The translations under genes were made by a program, and so were the position numbers. From Natranaerofaba carboxydovora (lineage in GTDB: Bacteria; Bacillota; Natranaerobiia; Natranaerobiales; Natranaerofabaceae), in NCBI RefSeq assembly GCF_022539405.1, contig NZ_CP054394.1, forward strand, positions 1,490,501-1,554,500: 64,000 nt of DNA, given 5' to 3'. The stretch's first letter is position 1. The number at the start of each line of letters is the position of its first letter. This document shows positions 9,084 to 17,025 of this stretch, one piece after another. The notes below the pieces were generated by a model. The model had not been told where the DNA came from and ran no database searches. It was given only the letters and a program-made list of their open reading frames with translations.

Positions 9084-10418
9084 TTAGAATTTATATTCAG
9101 GAAATCTGCTATAATTTCTTCTAGAGTGATCCTGTATATAAACATAATCATATTTTTCAATTAAAGTAACATAATCATCCGTCAAATTATCAGCTTTATT
9201 TTGACAGGCCTCACAAGCATTTCTAGGTACTATTATAGAAATAATATCATTTCTTCCATAAACACTTGACTCTACTATTCTAACACCACTACATTTATCA
9301 CATTTTAAAAATTCTTCCCTCTGCTTTTCTAGTAGACCACTTGTATCGTAAAATATACTTCTGTTTTTCTTATAACTATCTTTACTACCAAAGTACTCAT
9401 CTAAGTTAATATCTTTTCTTAAATTATACACTTCTGAAAGATGATTTACATAATCTTTTATCTGATCCATAATTTTCGGTGAGCTTTTCATGTCTAATTG
9501 GTCCAATTTTGGTTCCCTGACGTTACTATAATCGAGTCCAGCAAGGGCTAATATTATTCCCACATTGACATATGGCAAAGCTCCTTCTATAGAGTAGCCT
9601 CCTTCTAATACTACAATATCCGGATCAAGGCGTTTAGTTAGCTCTGCATAACCTCCAGCAGTAATATTCATCATAGTAAGCGGATCTGTAAAGTGATTGT
9701 CCTGTCCGGCAGCATTTATAATTAAATCAGGTTCAAAATCTTTTAGGACAGGATCAATTAAGTTATCCATAATATATAAAAGCCCTTCATCAGTTGTGTT
9801 AGTCGGAACTGGTATGTTAAGCGTATGGGCAAACCCACCAGGTCCACCTAAGTCATTGGGAAAGCCTGTACCAGGAAATATAGTTCTCCCGTCCTGATGA
9901 ACAGATATATGAAGCACATCAGGGTCATTTATATAGATGTCCTGGGTACCATCTGCATGATGTGCATCTGTATCAATAATTGCAATTTTTTTAACGTCAT
10001 AATTATCTCTTATATACTCAACCATTACTGCCTCAATATTTATATTGCAAAACCCTCTAGAGCCATGTGTTACAAGCATTGCATGATGCCCGGGCGGCCT
10101 AACTAGTGCAATCCCTTTATCAACTTCTCCTTTCAAAACAGAATCAGCGATAGCTTTACAACTGCCGGCTGAAATCAAGTGAGACTCAGTTAAGATGTCT
10201 TCAGGCTCTGTAACACAAATGTGAGTCTTAATAATATCTTCCAAATTGCATATTTCAGGTGGATATTCAATTATACCTTCTATGTCCATTAACCCTTCTT
10301 CAAATATCTGATCTCTTGTATAAAGTAATCTTTCTTCTCTTTCAGGATGATTAGGTGAAATAGCCCAATCAAAAGCTGGGAAAAACAAAACACTTGTCTT
10401 ATTATTAGCTTTCATCAA
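9084..10418 (-). CDS. Histone-deacetylase-family enzyme with Cys-rich tail
   Basis: The first 300 residues are a class I/II-type deacetylase (arginase-deacetylase fold, AcuC/APAH relatives). Visible catalytic features are RPPGHHAM (H111-H112), IDTDAHHADG (D151 and H153 as zinc ligands), NAAGQDNHFTDPL (D240) and the LEGGYS loop with the catalytic-type Tyr (275). Such bacterial enzymes remove acetyl groups from lysines, polyamines or small amides. The C-terminal 120 residues are extra and carry two CxxC pairs, CDKC (373-376) and CEAC (402-405), that could form a zinc ribbon. The start is the TTG at 10418 (AGGTG eight bases upstream) or the adjacent ATG at 10415. A 96-base palindrome lies 66 bases upstream. 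Confidence 0.85.
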   Translation of the reverse strand: MMKANNKTSVLFFPAFDWAISPNHPEREERLLYTRDQIFEEGLMDIEGIIEYPPEICNLEDIIKTHICVTEPEDILTESHLISAGSCKAIADSVLKGEVDKGIALVRPPGHHAMLVTHGSRGFCNINIEAVMVEYIRDNYDVKKIAIIDTDAHHADGTQDIYINDPDVLHISVHQDGRTIFPGTGFPNDLGGPGGFAHTLNIPVPTNTTDEGLLYIMDNLIDPVLKDFEPDLIINAAGQDNHFTDPLTMMNITAGGYAELTKRLDPDIVVLEGGYSIEGALPYVNVGIILALAGLDYSNVREPKLDQLDMKSSPKIMDQIKDYVNHLSEVYNLRKDINLDEYFGSKDSYKKNRSIFYDTSGLLEKQREEFLKCDKCSGVRIVESSVYGRNDIISIIVPRNACEACQNKADNLTDDYVTLIEKYDYVYIQDHSRRNYSRFPEYKF

Positions 10419-10484
10419 TATTAATACACCTACCTTATAAAATATAATAGCACTAAAATAATAAACAAATTAAAAACTTATTGT

Positions 10485-10580
10485 TGATTCTGGTGCAAAA
10501 AGTCACATGAGCAAAGTTTTGTTTTTAATATCAATTAAAAACACTTTACTTATGTGAATAGACTTTTTGCACCAGAATCA
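10485..10580. repeat. Complete 96-base palindromic repeat element
   Basis: The ends are perfect 20-base inverted repeats containing GATTCTGGTGCAAAAAGTC (10485-10504 and 10561-10580). The interior continues the pairing: CACATGAGCAAAGT against ACTTTACTTATGTG (12 of 14), then GTTTTTAAT against ATTAAAAAC. The whole element therefore folds into a near-continuous hairpin. It abuts the stop codon of the HyuA-like gene at 10581. Half copies occur at 1128 and 62991. Miniature inverted-repeat element or dispersed palindromic repeat are the best explanations; no T run supports a simple terminator. Confidence 0.85.
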
Positions 10581-12293
10581 TTATTTTGAGTTATTTAAGG
10601 TAAATACAGGACCGGGTTTTATTTGGGCACCAAGCTCAATTATCTTTCCTATAGTTGTAAAATCTCTTACTACATTAAATTCTTCAGTATAAGTTATTTC
10701 CGTTTCTCTAGACACATCTACTTCTTCATAACCCTTTCTTCTCTTCGCTCGTTCACTTATAGCATTGCGAGCTATTTTGGCTATTGAGACAATGTCGTTT
10801 ATACCCTCAGCATCTTTTTTAATTCCCATCTCAGGAATAACATAGTAGTTAGAAGCTGTATCACAATGAACAGTAACAACAGTTGTTGGTCTTGCCACTC
10901 CTGCTCCAATAGCATTCGCCACTTCATGATGTGGGGCCAATTCATACTCTGTTTCTAAATATTTTGCTATATATGGTAAAAATAGATGAGCGGGTCCTCC
11001 TATTCCAACTAATTTGTTAACTTCAAGCTTAAAAGGTTCTAAAACTTCCTTAACCGTATATACCGGACGGTTACTTAACTTCCTACATACATCTAAGATT
11101 TTATCACCTATAATTCTTGAGCTATTTTCCATAATTTTTTTTGCAACTTCATCAGGAGACAAATTAAGCTTATCACCTAAAGATTTTAGTTCAGATTCTA
11201 TCCTTTTAATTTTATAATTACTGTCTGCATCAGTAATAACATTTTTACTGTCAATATATGCTGCTGCGTCAGTAGGGGTAATGACTGGCCCTCCATATAA
11301 AATAGCAGGACCTTCGCGTCTTGGGCCTATCATTAAATCACCATTTTCCACAGATATTGCACTATCTCCTCCAATTCCAAGCGACTGTGAATAAAGCCCC
11401 CTGACACTAGTCTTGTAACCACCTATTTCAGTTCCTCCAGATTTAAATACAGGTGACCCATTTAGCATCAAGCCTATGTCTGTTGTCGTTCCTCCTATAT
11501 CTAATAAAAATGCTGAACTATGTTCGCTTGTTAACGCCATCTTTCCAAGTATACTTGCTGCTGGTCCAGATAATATTGTATGTACACAGTGCTTAACCGA
11601 ATCTTCAAGGCTTAATGTGCCACCATCTCCTTTTAAGATAAATGTAGGAGCATTTAACCCTATCTCCTGCAAAGAGTTTTTGACCGATTCAACAAAACTT
11701 TTATGCCTTCTATAAATTGCAGCATTAAAATATGAAGTGCAAATTCTTCGGGGAAAATTAAGCCTCCCTGCAACTCTGTGACCTAAGGAGATATATTCTA
11801 TCTCTGGAAAGTCTTTTTTGATCAAGTTTTCTACTTTCTCTTCTAATTCAGGATTTCTATTAGAAAATTTGCTCACCACAGCAATATATTGGGATCCCTC
11901 TTCTATAAATTCTTTTACAGCTTTTCTTACTTCATCTTCATCTACATCTTCAATTACTTTTCCTCTATGATCAATATAACCTTTTAAAACTTTAGAATGT
12001 TCAAAAAAAGGTAAATTTAGAGGAGATATGCCTGGTCCGGGTAAAGTTAGAAGACCTACTTTATCATATGTTTTTTCTACAATTGCATTGGTAGATAGAG
12101 TGGTACTAAGACATATCCTACTTAAGTTTTTACACAACTCAGGATCATAGATAGCCTTAATGGCCTGCAAAGTAGAGTCTAATAAATCATCATGATCGGT
12201 CGGTATCTTTGCTTTTTTATAAACCTTATCCCGAGATATTAATACCGCGTCTGTATGAGTGCCACCTACGTCAATTCCAATAGTTAATGTCAC
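10581..12293 (-). CDS. Hydantoinase/oxoprolinase-family protein (HyuA-like)
   Basis: The GTG at 12293 has GGGGTG six bases upstream; an in-frame GTG nine bases earlier overlaps that site. The 570-residue protein has two ASKHA-fold phosphate loops: GIDVGGTHTDAVL near the N-terminus and FLLDIGGTTTDIG near the middle, as in the A subunit of ATP-dependent hydantoinases, 5-oxoprolinases and acetone carboxylases. It contains the LSTTLSTNAIVE and LSGPAASILG segments typical of the family. It is shorter than HyuA proteins of about 700 residues, and no HyuB (B subunit) gene is adjacent, which makes the exact reaction uncertain. It sits in a group of amide- and amino-acid-related enzymes. Confidence 0.82.
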   Translation of the reverse strand: MTLTIGIDVGGTHTDAVLISRDKVYKKAKIPTDHDDLLDSTLQAIKAIYDPELCKNLSRICLSTTLSTNAIVEKTYDKVGLLTLPGPGISPLNLPFFEHSKVLKGYIDHRGKVIEDVDEDEVRKAVKEFIEEGSQYIAVVSKFSNRNPELEEKVENLIKKDFPEIEYISLGHRVAGRLNFPRRICTSYFNAAIYRRHKSFVESVKNSLQEIGLNAPTFILKGDGGTLSLEDSVKHCVHTILSGPAASILGKMALTSEHSSAFLLDIGGTTTDIGLMLNGSPVFKSGGTEIGGYKTSVRGLYSQSLGIGGDSAISVENGDLMIGPRREGPAILYGGPVITPTDAAAYIDSKNVITDADSNYKIKRIESELKSLGDKLNLSPDEVAKKIMENSSRIIGDKILDVCRKLSNRPVYTVKEVLEPFKLEVNKLVGIGGPAHLFLPYIAKYLETEYELAPHHEVANAIGAGVARPTTVVTVHCDTASNYYVIPEMGIKKDAEGINDIVSIAKIARNAISERAKRRKGYEEVDVSRETEITYTEEFNVVRDFTTIGKIIELGAQIKPGPVFTLNNSK

Positions 12294-12338
12294 TTTATTC
12301 ACCCCTGTGTAAACATTCGAATTTTTCTTAACAATGAT

Positions 12339-12487: not shown

Positions 12488-12826
12488 ATGTGGGGATTTG
12501 CAATTGATGTAGACACTTCATCTCCTATCTATATTAAAGAATGTATTAGTAAGTCAGGACACATAACACTAATTACTGTTTATCAGGAACCATATGGTAT
12601 AAAACTATATCCGAGCACTTTTATAGATGAAATCAAAAAATCAAAAGGTCATGAAGGAAAAAGATATAATATCGAAAAAAGAGAAGTTCTTAACATTAAG
12701 GAAAATGATGTAATAAACTTCGGTGGGTTAATTAATATAGAAGAAATCAGGAATATCTTGTCTAGAGTTATTGTTGATCCTGATGTTGATGAAGTTATAA
12801 AACTAACAACCAAGATTAAAGCTTAA
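12488..12826 (+). CDS. Unrecognised 112-residue protein
   Basis: One of the few plus-strand genes. The ATG has GGGAGG about 11 bases upstream and the gene ends in its own terminator, so it is very likely real. The product begins MWGFAIDVDTSS and is a mixed alpha/beta soluble protein without signal peptide, membrane segment or cysteine pairs beyond one Cys near residue 18. The N-terminal WGFAIDVDTSSPIY and the C-terminal VIVDPDVDEVIKL are the most distinctive parts. I do not recognise the family. It is divergent from the HyuA-like gene and convergent with the symporter. Confidence 0.7.
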   Translation: MWGFAIDVDTSSPIYIKECISKSGHITLITVYQEPYGIKLYPSTFIDEIKKSKGHEGKRYNIEKREVLNIKENDVINFGGLINIEEIRNILSRVIVDPDVDEVIKLTTKIKA

Positions 12827-12884: not shown

Positions 12885-14483
12885 TTATAATTTTTTTACA
12901 CCTTTATAACAAATTTCAAGATGTTCGTTATAAACAGGTTTTGTAAAAAGACTTACTACAACAAAAACTATTCCTGATATAATTATAGAATACACTAAGG
13001 GGTCAATATGAGTCCATGGAAAAGGCAATAACGCATCCTTTCCAAAAATTAGACGAGATAAACCTAAAACTTCTGACTCAGATATATGAAGAAACACATA
13101 TCCAAAAATACTAACTGTCAAGCCAGTAACTACACTAGATATAGCTCCAACTCTACTACTACCAGGCCAAAACAAAGTCCCAATCAGAGTTGGTAGAAAA
13201 CTGGCCGCACAAATACCAAACCAAAATGAAGTAGCTCTAGCAATTATACTTCCTGGTAATACATAAGCTAACAAAATAGCTAATAAAACTGCAATCAAAA
13301 CCCCAATTCTAGCAAGCAAAGTATTATCCTGTTTTTTATCATTATCATTACTTGATAAAGGGCCAATTATATCTTTACTCAAGGCTGTCCCTTGCACATG
13401 CACAAGGGAGCTTAATGTAGAAATAGCAGCTGAAATTAAGGTTACCATAAATAAGTACAAAAACCATGACGGCATAACTTCACTAATAAAAAGTGGTATT
13501 ATACTATCAGTATTACCGCCTGCAGCTTCTACACTAATCATACCAGTAGTTTCATAAAAATAAAGATTGCTTAGTGGTCCAACTATGAAGGCTGTTCCAG
13601 TCATAAAAAATATAAAAAAACCACCGACCGCAATAGCACGATATAGAGACTTAGTGCTAGGTACAGTCATAAAACGCATAGCCAGCTGAGGTTGTGCCAA
13701 AGCTCCAATTCCAACTCCAAGGATGATATTTGTAATAACTTGCAGCCAAATTTGAGAGCCAGGTTCTGGCATTGCAGTCCAACCTCTATGCCCTTTTTCA
13801 ATAAGGTTTTCGGGAATCATGTAACTCAAATCTGTTAATGCCTGATGACTACTAATAACTCCACCTACTACAGAATAGGCAGTAATTAATAGTGCAATCA
13901 TTCCTACCAACATTACCAAAGCGCAAAAAGCATCTGTGTACATAACTGCTTTTATGCCTCCGGATAAAACATAGGCTCCCACAATAATCGCAAGAATAAA
14001 AAGAGCTAAGTTATAGTCAATCTCTAGAGCTTCCTCAAAAAAACGAGCTCCTCCAACTAGGATTATACTCGTATAAGCAGGCATAAAAATAAATATCATA
14101 AAACCAGAAAAAACTGTTAAGAAATTTGAATCATACCTGCGTCCAAGCAAAGACGGAAATGAACTAACATTAAGATTAACAGACATTTTCCTTATACGAA
14201 CTCCAAATAAAGCAAAAGCAACCATTATACCCAAAACAATGGTTAAAAAAGCAAGCCAAAGAAGACTAAATCCAAATAATCCTGCTGCTCCTCCAAACCC
14301 AACTATTGCTGACGTACTAATAAATGTAGCTCCGTAAGAAAGAGCCATAACCCCAGGATTAATATTTCTTCCTGCTATCAGATAGTCTTCATCTGTTACT
14401 GTCTGTTTGTATGCGTGATAAGCTAATGTCGTTAGTATAGCCAAAAAAATTAAAATAATAACTGATAGCAAAAGAAGATTCAT
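12885..14483 (-). CDS. Sodium:solute symporter (SSS/SLC5 family)
   Basis: A 532-residue membrane protein with about 13 hydrophobic helices. Family features include AYHAYKQTVTDEDYLIAGR near the N-terminus, GATFISTSAIVGFGGAAG, the sodium-site region ISAAISTLSSLVHVQGT (about residues 345-361) and PQLAMRFMTVPST. It couples Na+ entry to uptake of an organic solute, probably a monocarboxylate or amino acid by overall similarity to the acetate/pantothenate/proline group; the substrate is not decidable. The ATG overlaps the stop of the upstream 37-residue gene (ATGA), so translation is probably coupled. It lies close to amide-hydrolysing enzymes, which could act on the imported compound. Confidence 0.87.
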   Translation of the reverse strand: MNLLLLSVIILIFLAILTTLAYHAYKQTVTDEDYLIAGRNINPGVMALSYGATFISTSAIVGFGGAAGLFGFSLLWLAFLTIVLGIMVAFALFGVRIRKMSVNLNVSSFPSLLGRRYDSNFLTVFSGFMIFIFMPAYTSIILVGGARFFEEALEIDYNLALFILAIIVGAYVLSGGIKAVMYTDAFCALVMLVGMIALLITAYSVVGGVISSHQALTDLSYMIPENLIEKGHRGWTAMPEPGSQIWLQVITNIILGVGIGALAQPQLAMRFMTVPSTKSLYRAIAVGGFFIFFMTGTAFIVGPLSNLYFYETTGMISVEAAGGNTDSIIPLFISEVMPSWFLYLFMVTLISAAISTLSSLVHVQGTALSKDIIGPLSSNDNDKKQDNTLLARIGVLIAVLLAILLAYVLPGSIIARATSFWFGICAASFLPTLIGTLFWPGSSRVGAISSVVTGLTVSIFGYVFLHISESEVLGLSRLIFGKDALLPFPWTHIDPLVYSIIISGIVFVVVSLFTKPVYNEHLEICYKGVKKL

Positions 14484-14695: not shown

Positions 14696-15334
14696 TCATA
14701 ACTTTGTTAATTCATTAATGGTAATAGCATAATAAGGAAACAATGAGTTTGCAACTGTTATAGTCTTATAATAAATTGCTTCTGACCAACTGCCTTTATT
14801 CTTCAAGCTATCTAAAAGTTGTATTGTATCGGGTCTATTATGATGAGACACTATTAAAGCACCATTTGATCTAAGGTTATCCATAAATATTCTTTCCAAG
14901 TATGTATTTAGCTTTGGATCATAGCAAATATCTGAAGCCAAAATTACATCATATCTTGTATCTAAGTCAAAGCTTCGCCAGTCACCAACATAACTGTCAT
15001 AATCTTTTATATCATTTAACCTTGCATTATTTAATGCCATATTAACTGCATCTTCATTGAAATCAGAAAAAGTAACTTTCCCTCCTTTTAACCCTGCAGT
15101 TATACCTGGTAAGCCAAGGCCACACCCTAACTCTAAAACTGTCTTATCTGTAAAGTCGAGCCTTTCCCAAATGTGCAAAGCCATCGCTTTAGCAGCGGGC
15201 CATAGTTCTGCCCAACATGGGACTTTATCAGGATCATTGGGGTCAGTTATTAATGCTTCAACATCTTCAACTATCTTAAATTTTATTGTTTTACCTGGCA
15301 ATTGGTAATCAACTATCTTTTCATTGCTTTCCAA
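14696..15334 (-). CDS. Class I SAM-dependent methyltransferase (METTL21/FAM86-like)
   Basis: The 212-residue protein has motif I VLELGCGLGLPGI (about residues 64-76), an acidic residue in VTFSDFNEDAV (motif II), YVGDWRSF, and LASDICYDP. The ELGCGLGLPGI sequence and the D-x-C-Y after motif IV resemble the lysine-methyltransferase-like methyltransferase 16 family, which modifies proteins such as ETF-beta. The target here is unknown. The TTG start has GGAGG eight bases upstream. It is divergently transcribed from the cobalamin-type regulator, so a regulatory relation is possible but unproven. Confidence 0.8.
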   Translation of the reverse strand: MESNEKIVDYQLPGKTIKFKIVEDVEALITDPNDPDKVPCWAELWPAAKAMALHIWERLDFTDKTVLELGCGLGLPGITAGLKGGKVTFSDFNEDAVNMALNNARLNDIKDYDSYVGDWRSFDLDTRYDVILASDICYDPKLNTYLERIFMDNLRSNGALIVSHHNRPDTIQLLDSLKNKGSWSEAIYYKTITVANSLFPYYAITINELTKL

Positions 15335-15494
15335 AATTTAACCTCCAAACTAAAAGATAAAGCTATTCACAGGATAGATTTTATCTCAATTATGTTATTT
15401 TAACAAGTTTAATTTAATTTTGATATTAAAATTTATCTACATTTTTGATAAAATAAAAAAGAGCTAAAATACTTAAAGATATGAGGGAAATGCC

Positions 15495-16376
15495 TTGTCA
15501 AACTTTGGAAGTCGTTTAAAAGAGCTCAGAGCAAAAAAAAGGATAAGTCAAAAGCAACTTGCAGAAAAGCTTGGTATTGTTCAAAGTACTATTGCAAACT
15601 ATGAAAAAGGACTTAGATTTCCAGATCATAACACTCTGATAAAGCTAGCAGGTATTTTTAATGTTTATATCGATTATCTATTAGGACATCAGGCACTTAA
15701 TAATAAAGGTTGGTATTTAACCCACGATGCCAAAGAATTTATAAATGCTTTTTTTGCCAATGACAAGAAAAAAGCAAGCAATATTGTCTTATCTTTCTTT
15801 GACAGTATAAATACTAAAAATGGTCTTAAAAAAGTTTATCAAGAATTATTTGAATATACTATGGAACATATCGGCCTTCTATGGAATCAAGGAAAAATAG
15901 ATGTTTCAGATGTATCAAGGTTTGCTATATTTTCAAAAGATTATTTAACAATACTAAAGGAGAATGTGCCTTCATTTGCAGACAAAGAAGCAGATAAGAA
16001 GATTACACTTCTTCCAGTATGTGGTGAAGAACATAATTTTGGTATTAGAATTATTAATGATTATCTCGAAGTATTGGGCTATGATACTTATTTGCTTGAA
16101 GATAACATACCTATCAAAAACTTAGTGTGGTTTGTTGAGCAATACAAAATAAACTTGTTAATGTTATCTGCAACAATGAATTTTAATGAAGATACAGTAA
16201 TTAATACCATTAAAGCCGTTCGAAGTAACGATAATGACATAAAAATTATAGTTGGTGGTCCTTTATTCAATTTAAATAAAAATTTATGGTTACAAATTGG
16301 TTCAGATGGTTATGCAGAAAATATTAATAAAATTGATGAAGTTTTAAAGCACTTAGATTCTTCCATTAACGTTTAA
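15495..16376 (+). CDS. XRE-family regulator fused to a cobalamin-binding module
   Basis: Starts at TTG 15495 with GAGGG upstream; 293 residues. Residues 5-62 are a Cro/C1 helix-turn-helix (SQKQLAEKLGIVQSTIANYE). Residues about 77-165 form a helical cap with LLWNQGKI (W130), and 168-290 are a B12-binding Rossmann domain with the three classical motifs: GEEHNFG (H180, predicted lower cobalt ligand), LSATM (S225) and VGGP (254-256). This parallels CarH/CarA, where a MerR-type helix-turn-helix carries the same module and adenosylcobalamin senses light. Here the Glu-His pair that follows the cap Trp in CarH is replaced by Val-Ser (140-141), so cobalamin binding is likely but photochemistry is not assured. 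Confidence 0.8.
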   Translation: MSNFGSRLKELRAKKRISQKQLAEKLGIVQSTIANYEKGLRFPDHNTLIKLAGIFNVYIDYLLGHQALNNKGWYLTHDAKEFINAFFANDKKKASNIVLSFFDSINTKNGLKKVYQELFEYTMEHIGLLWNQGKIDVSDVSRFAIFSKDYLTILKENVPSFADKEADKKITLLPVCGEEHNFGIRIINDYLEVLGYDTYLLEDNIPIKNLVWFVEQYKINLLMLSATMNFNEDTVINTIKAVRSNDNDIKIIVGGPLFNLNKNLWLQIGSDGYAENINKIDEVLKHLDSSINV

Positions 16377-16386
16377 ATCACCCTTT

Positions 16387-17025
16387 TCAATTAACATTAT
16401 CCTCTCTCCATTCCCAGTAAGTTTTATTCATTTCGTATGTTTTATTAACAATAACTTCTTTTTCGTCCGGAGTTAACCCTGGTTCTTTATAATCCAGGGT
16501 TTCTTTTAATTCTATAACCTCCATACTATAATCCACTAAAAATTCTTTTAAATACCCATTATTTTCAGCAAAATTTCCAAGGCGATTTAAATCAGCCATA
16601 AATAATGGAGGACTAACTCTCATTAACGATATAGTATCTACAAGGTTTTTAATATTATTATATACTTCTAAAGATTTGTCATCTCCTCCAAATGGAAATC
16701 TAACTTCATGTGGATCAATATTATCAGACATTTTTGTCATCAAAATAAAATTCTTATTTACTCGTTCTCTAAGTTCCGCCTCTCTTACTTCATCAAAATC
16801 TTCTTCTTTTGCTTCTTCTAAATAGACTATTAATTCTGTTAAATAACTTTCCATATAAGTTATAGTTTCCAAAACAAGATTATGATTTTGCCTTTTATTT
16901 TTATCTATTAATTCATTAACTTTATTATAATTATACAAATTAAGTATAAGGCTAACAATTAGTATAGTATAAATAATTATTTTTCTCTTATCAAAATTTA
17001 AAATAGCTAAACCCCCCAACAACAT
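16387..17025 (-). CDS. Unknown protein with N-terminal membrane anchor
   Basis: The 212-residue product has one hydrophobic helix at about residues 15-30 (KIIIYTILIVSLILNLYNY), then a long, charged helical region facing outward by the positive-inside rule (KR before the helix). No cysteine, catalytic motif or repeat is seen. The ATG start lacks a good ribosome site, and GGGGGG lies just inside the frame, so a non-standard start slightly further in is possible. It is convergent with the cobalamin-type regulator and downstream of the FAD lipoprotein. I do not recognise the family. Confidence 0.6.
   Translation of the reverse strand: MLLGGLAILNFDKRKIIIYTILIVSLILNLYNYNKVNELIDKNKRQNHNLVLETITYMESYLTELIVYLEEAKEEDFDEVREAELRERVNKNFILMTKMSDNIDPHEVRFPFGGDDKSLEVYNNIKNLVDTISLMRVSPPLFMADLNRLGNFAENNGYLKEFLVDYSMEVIELKETLDYKEPGLTPDEKEVIVNKTYEMNKTYWEWREDNVN

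Follow-up and report, generated by a model that had tools for sequence, protein, structure and literature searches.

A one-component transcriptional regulator was identified in the window, which means the whole stretch of 64,000 nucleotides of Natranaerofaba carboxydovora that was analysed. The protein probably binds a corrinoid and belongs to a CarH-like family with an XRE-type head, in which it appears to have turned blind to light; we give this reading a probability of roughly 0.55. Since the anchor for B12 was kept and the light-sensing residues were lost, it probably reports B12 itself and not light, as far as its residues can tell.

Domains and B12 motifs of the regulator

The gene and the features of its product were as follows, with the strand after the coordinates and the basis in brackets.

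15483..15488, +: SD-like GAGGGA, 6 bases 5' of the TTG (sequence)
15495..16376, +: gene of the XRE-B12 regulator, 293 aa, TTG start (ORF and Pfam)
15507..15683, +: Cro/C1-type HTH, residues 5-63 (Pfam HTH_3/HTH_19 and model)
Recognition helix, about residues 30-38 (model helices 19-26 and 30-37)
15732..15965, +: B12-binding_2 helical cap, residues 80-157 (Pfam and model)
15882..15884, +: cap Trp W130, retained (family alignment)
15912..15917, +: V140-S141 where Wx9EH has Glu-His (family alignment)
15999..16367, +: B12-binding Rossmann module, residues 169-291 (Pfam, model and Foldseek)
16026..16043, +: E178xH180xxG183, lower-axial-ligand motif, retained (family alignment)
16098..16112, +: E202-D-N-I-P206, GxxxP light element with Gly changed to Glu (family alignment)
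16167..16175, +: S225xT227, retained (family alignment)
16254..16259, +: G254G255, retained (family alignment)

All four Pfam domains exceeded their curated gathering cut-offs, with E-values of 1.9e-13 for HTH_19, 2.6e-13 for HTH_3, 2e-14 for B12-binding and 5.4e-5 for B12-binding_2. The Pfam matches alone cover residues 80-144 of the cap and 171-277 of the Rossmann domain. The HTH and both B12 domains were found in a single chain by Pfam and by the model, which bears out the fusion of an XRE-type HTH to a B12 module proposed in the initial annotation. The D/ExHxxG, SxT/V and GG motif set of one-component B12 regulators was complete, with G127LLW130, E178-E-H180-N-F-G183, S225-A-T227 and G254-G255, and the positions given earlier for W130, H180, S-x-T at 225 and GG at 254-255 were all correct. 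These motifs are far beyond chance because ten family-invariant residues were retained: G127, W130, H180, G183, G195, P206, S225, T227, G254 and G255 were the same in 32 non-redundant members and in the window protein. V140 and S141 sit 10 and 11 residues past W130, like E141 and H142 past W131 in TtCarH, and the replacement of Glu-His by Val-Ser near the cap Trp, noticed before from the sequence, was confirmed in the family alignment. The loss at E202 in GxxxP, the intact second XRE-B12 gene in the genome and the recurrence of this architecture as a family go beyond that annotation.

The structure was modelled by AlphaFold2 from a 14-row family alignment (mean pLDDT 86), and it consisted of HTH, helical cap and Rossmann fold. 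Foldseek against the PDB returned photocobilin 8j2x (E 2e-9), corrinoid protein 4jgi, CarH 5c8d/5c8e and CtMerR 8jbt, and the B12 region could be superposed on photocobilin 8j2x and CtMerR 8jbt at 2.6-3.1 Å. A model without a Rossmann-type B12 pocket around H180 had been named as what would speak against the idea; in the model this pocket was present.

In its build the window protein resembles a B12 regulator of the CarH type, but it is no member of CarH/LitR. Like CarH/LitR (TtCarH 5C8D/5C8E), it has an N-terminal HTH, a Trp-bearing B12-binding_2 cap and a Rossmann module with ExHxxG, SxT and GG, and the intact XRE-B12 members further share Wx9EH and light-related neighbours with them. Unlike them, its HTH is of the Cro/C1 type (HTH_3/HTH_19) with no MerR match in Pfam, both the EH and the Gly of GxxxP are missing, and it scored only 20 bits with the CarH equivalog NF052513 (NCBIfam) against a cut-off of 400. 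In fold, the B12 region came closest to CtMerR and the photocobilins (8JBS/8JBT, 8J2W/8J2X/8J2Y): 8j2x was the top match of the window model and 8jbt that of the paralogue. These proteins have other output domains (MerR, bilin-binding domain, DGC) and a complete light signature. The corrinoid proteins MtgC, MtbC and MtaC (4JGI, 1Y80, 3EZX) share the cap and Rossmann core with similar profile scores but have no HTH; in the alignment with 4JGI, Phe takes the place of the cap Trp and GxxxP has its Gly, the opposite of the window protein. AerR/PpaA is not known to have a DNA-binding domain of its own. This B12-dependent antirepressor (7TE2) is alike in being a regulator with the same B12 fold. Profile scores were tried as a means to separate CarH-like from methyltransferase corrinoid proteins and rejected, the light-type paralogue scoring about equally with both.

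The XRE-B12 family, its operators and its gene contexts

Searches of public genomes, with partial genome sampling, gave 44 XRE-B12 proteins (two of them incomplete) from several groups of Bacillota, the window protein included, which matched the family profile along its full length and was placed in the family trees. The initial annotation was right about the Cro/C1 HTH in place of a MerR head, but the protein turned out to belong, as a derived form, to an XRE-B12 family in which most proteins keep the light motif. The Wx9EH of CarH was retained in 40 of the 44, and GxxW, EH, GxxH and GxxxP, the published light-response signature of B12 domains (PMC11796333), were all present in the strict sense in 17/44; in most other members Ser, Pro or Ala replaces the Gly of GxxH, so that the signature does not appear literally. 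On plasmids no full-length XRE-B12 match was found, only matches to the B12 domain. No description of an XRE and B12-binding fusion was found in the open-access literature. One paper speaks in general terms of HTHs fused to light-responsive B12 domains (PMC11796333), and its network may already include this architecture. The family is little described and looks like a second, separately built CarH, an XRE-headed analogue.

A shared operator, ATCACA-N3-TGTGAT, was revealed by a dyad search in the regions upstream of XRE-B12 genes. It occurred with at most two mismatches in 31/44 upstream regions, where 0.9 were expected from dinucleotide shuffles; the word was picked from these very regions, though through exact dyads only. 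With a matrix made from the best sites, 56 sites reached a score of 9 or more across 35 non-redundant regions, compared with 0.9 in shuffles; the count of 56 is optimistic because the matrix was trained on the same regions. The operators are often paired, with spacings clustered near multiples of ten (28-32, 40 and 48-50 bp), and the observed phasing was reached in none of 20000 random sets when one or few values per related group were used. Phasing along the helix of this kind points to a tetramer or neighbouring dimers that bind cooperatively, in the manner of CarH.

A second full-length XRE-B12 protein is encoded in the window genome about 0.2 Mb from the window gene (L008, G000:C1:1298670-1299578). 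It shares 38% identity with the window protein, carries all four published AdoCbl light elements, and its model (pLDDT 89.5) had the photoreceptor CtMerR as all four best structural matches. At this locus (L008 6853-10582, G000:C1:1295852-1299581) the XRE-B12 gene is divergent from cofG-cofH-DICT, with a DUF1848 gene after, and three operator-like sites lie between the paralogue gene and cofG, whose promoter region is L008 9469-9667; light-controlled synthesis of FO (deazaflavin) is predicted here. FO is a known antenna of photolyase. Across the window genome, the derived pattern ATYACRNNNYGTRAT gave three exact sites, including one in the promoter of the paralogue, against one in the control. 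Genome-wide, ATCACANNNTGTGAT (1 mismatch) was not enriched, with four sites against six in the control. Elsewhere in the same genome an operator match lies about 15 bp 5' of a gene that starts like a PAS-domain signalling protein (L133 1501-3017, G000:C1:1083524 onward).

The neighbours of the family were clustered and then annotated with Pfam and NCBIfam, and their contexts are correlated among related genomes. The cofG-cofH-DICT set is divergent from the XRE-B12 gene in L058 as well as in L008, and the DICT gene alone is beside it in L059 and L060. Phytoene desaturase (CrtI) is divergent from it in L061, the gene of the UV endonuclease UvsE is directly downstream in L062, and a DNA photolyase is beside or near it in L128 and L122-L124. 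These photolyase, UvsE, carotenoid desaturase and FO synthesis neighbours fit light regulation. Methyl-accepting chemotaxis genes were divergent from XRE-B12 at further loci (L063, L101, L102, L103, L108, L115, L116, L117, L120), as were che genes in L057 and L100. An FtsX-type ABC transporter, with no obvious light meaning, stands by the XRE-B12 gene at 15 loci. Judging by their motif, their fold, their gene contexts and the phasing of their operators, the intact members would be expected to work as CarH does.

Other arrangements were also observed. A stand-alone B12-domain gene is divergent beside XRE-B12 in L114 (5139-5789), L122 (5128-5790), L123 (7062-7730), L124 (5068-5736), L125 (5104-5808) and L126 (2374-3033), each with the FtsX-type transporter next and, in L122-L124, a photolyase in addition. 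Two consecutive genes of MutS-domain-V-type ATPases are directly 3' of the XRE-B12 gene in L104, L105 and L106. In the window genome another protein, of 376 aa, has a B12 module at its C-terminal end and W..EH intact (L003 1003-3093, G000:C1:1926714-1928804); a PAS-GGDEF-like gene comes directly after its gene, and it may sense light through B12 in connection with c-di-GMP.

Control region and neighbours of the window gene

The features 5' of the window gene were these.

12885..14483, -: SSF sodium:solute symporter, possible target (Pfam)
14696..15334, -: class I methyltransferase (Methyltransf_16, 3e-12), divergent, possible target (Pfam)
15335..15494: divergent intergenic region, 160 bp, candidate control region with no family operator

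The divergent methyltransferase and the nearby symporter had been pointed out in the initial annotation and were recovered by Pfam, and neither was linked to XRE-B12 in a conserved way in the neighbourhoods of relatives. Binding of the window protein to 15335-15494 is plausible, and this promoter is the first candidate target. Weak inverted repeats occur in the AT-rich DNA of this region (15395-15406/15445-15456), and the best score for the family operator was -2.5 where the threshold is 9. Because the operator is absent, autoregulation and a local target are not supported. The recognition helix is nearly unchanged (VQSTIANYEK), its T31S being found also in L016, which has a good operator; since it is so little changed, action at the operators of the paralogue is conceivable, and the window protein might act there instead. 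No RNA family was detected by Rfam at the gathering threshold in the whole window, therefore no cobalamin riboswitch, and promoter and terminator matches in a scan were no more numerous than in shuffles.

Two further genes, at 12488-12826 and 16387-17025, had no Pfam family above the gathering cut-off. Unrelated to the regulator, a histone-deacetylase-like gene adjoins a hydantoinase/oxoprolinase gene on the minus strand at 9084-12302.

Loss of light residues and how it may be read

In the alignment, 40 columns showed conservation in 85% or more of the 32 reference members, and 21 of these columns were fully invariant. The window protein had five non-conservative changes in the 40 columns (L86F, E140V, H141S, G202E and A270S), and E140 was its only change among the 21. 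L063, whose source belongs to the same order but a different genus, had exactly three, E140V, H141Y and G202E, so V140 and E202 are identical in both. Positions 140, 141 and 202 are sites of the light signature outside the B12 anchor, and the residues holding cobalamin at its lower face were retained in both proteins, where H180, G183, T227, G254 and G255 persist over branches of about 1.7 changes per column. In the free tree the window protein stands beside L107; with the trait columns masked, a clade of the window protein and L063 was not rejected (p-AU 0.33), and the loss of Glu-His may have been one event or two.

W131, E141, H142 and H177 of CarH are proven AdoCbl-binding residues (PMC11796333). 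The shift from CarH to CarA, which is independent of B12, went with the loss of Wx9EH (PMC9304148). In CarH the cap Trp, Glu and His touch the adenosyl group, AdoCbl leads to a tetramer that binds DNA, and light breaks this tetramer (PMC11796333, PMC9304148, PMC10979010). In the ancestral form, as presumed here, an AdoCbl-bound multimer would occupy paired ATCACA-N3-TGTGAT operators in the dark and would be freed from them by photolysis of the Co-C bond. In the window copy the lower-face (His-on) corrinoid anchor is retained along with the HTH, but E140/H141, the readers of the upper (adenosyl) ligand, are gone, as is the Gly of the GxxxP loop at the subunit interface. It would most likely still be bound to a corrinoid, its adenosyl or light state no longer read, and would regulate, probably repress, by the presence or form of the corrinoid, perhaps forms with small upper ligands. 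The earlier proposal that it senses a cobalamin form without light, or another corrinoid, stays the likeliest, strengthened by the third changed position and by L063, though the protein is more than a lone CarH with an exchanged HTH. A wider history, which we put forward only tentatively, is that anaerobic Bacillota built their own Cro/C1-headed B12 photoreceptor repressors with phased operators for FO, photorepair, carotenoid and chemotaxis genes, and that the window protein was re-purposed from them as a light-blind corrinoid sensor through E140V and G202E.

The B12 module may, as a rather unlikely alternative, serve structure or dimerisation only, DNA being regulated without a corrinoid and perhaps under another protein. 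A parallel is the CarA of Myxococcus, a motif-broken paralogue of CarH that works without B12 despite its intact B12 motif (PMC9304148). The window protein resembles CarA of Myxococcus xanthus as a derived copy in a genome with an intact photoreceptor-type paralogue, with the B12 motif present and Wx9EH broken. The break is a different one, however: CarA is without the Trp but has the EH, while the window protein has W130 and no EH; CarA is of the MerR type, and the window protein is XRE with its paralogue about 0.2 Mb off. The retention of the lower-face residues and the cap Trp over a long branch suggests that ligand binding is still selected.

That the window protein is still a B12 photoreceptor of altered chemistry, in which another residue such as E202 of the interface loop stands in for E140, is improbable. 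E140V and G202E do co-occur in two divergent proteins; G202 was lost only alongside H141, in three of three proteins (Fisher 3e-4, relatedness uncorrected), and L063 retains the MCP neighbour typical of intact members. Light chemistry also tolerates variation, the light state of CtMerR differing from that of TtCarH in having no bis-His state, and two other XRE-B12 members have ER without the His of EH; because of these cases signature loss is no strict proof of light-blindness. Yet of the four published elements GLLW and GEEH are present in the window protein and two, EH and GxxxP, fail; its gene has neither the family operator, which is likewise absent from the L063 promoter, nor a light-related neighbour.

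A sensor of methyl-corrinoid status for one-carbon or corrinoid methyltransferase metabolism is more doubtful still: several MtgC-like corrinoid proteins (L004-L007) are encoded in the genome, models of corrinoid proteins give the B12 region a higher score than the CarH model does and a methyltransferase gene is divergent from the window gene, but that enzyme is SAM-dependent and of class I, not of the corrinoid type, the light-type paralogue also scores well with models of corrinoid proteins, and no neighbourhood with methyltransferase genes is conserved.

The B12 photosensory module is apparently not tied to MerR heads: in anaerobic Bacillota the role of CarH seems to be filled by a family that has an XRE head and an operator of its own. 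The paralogue, its operator and its target genes make up a testable system. Nature offers in the window protein a variant that lacks the light residues, and its contrast with the intact paralogue could separate the residues for light sensing from those for plain corrinoid sensing. The compact XRE head and the short, defined operator might also provide a possible cobalamin or green-light switch.
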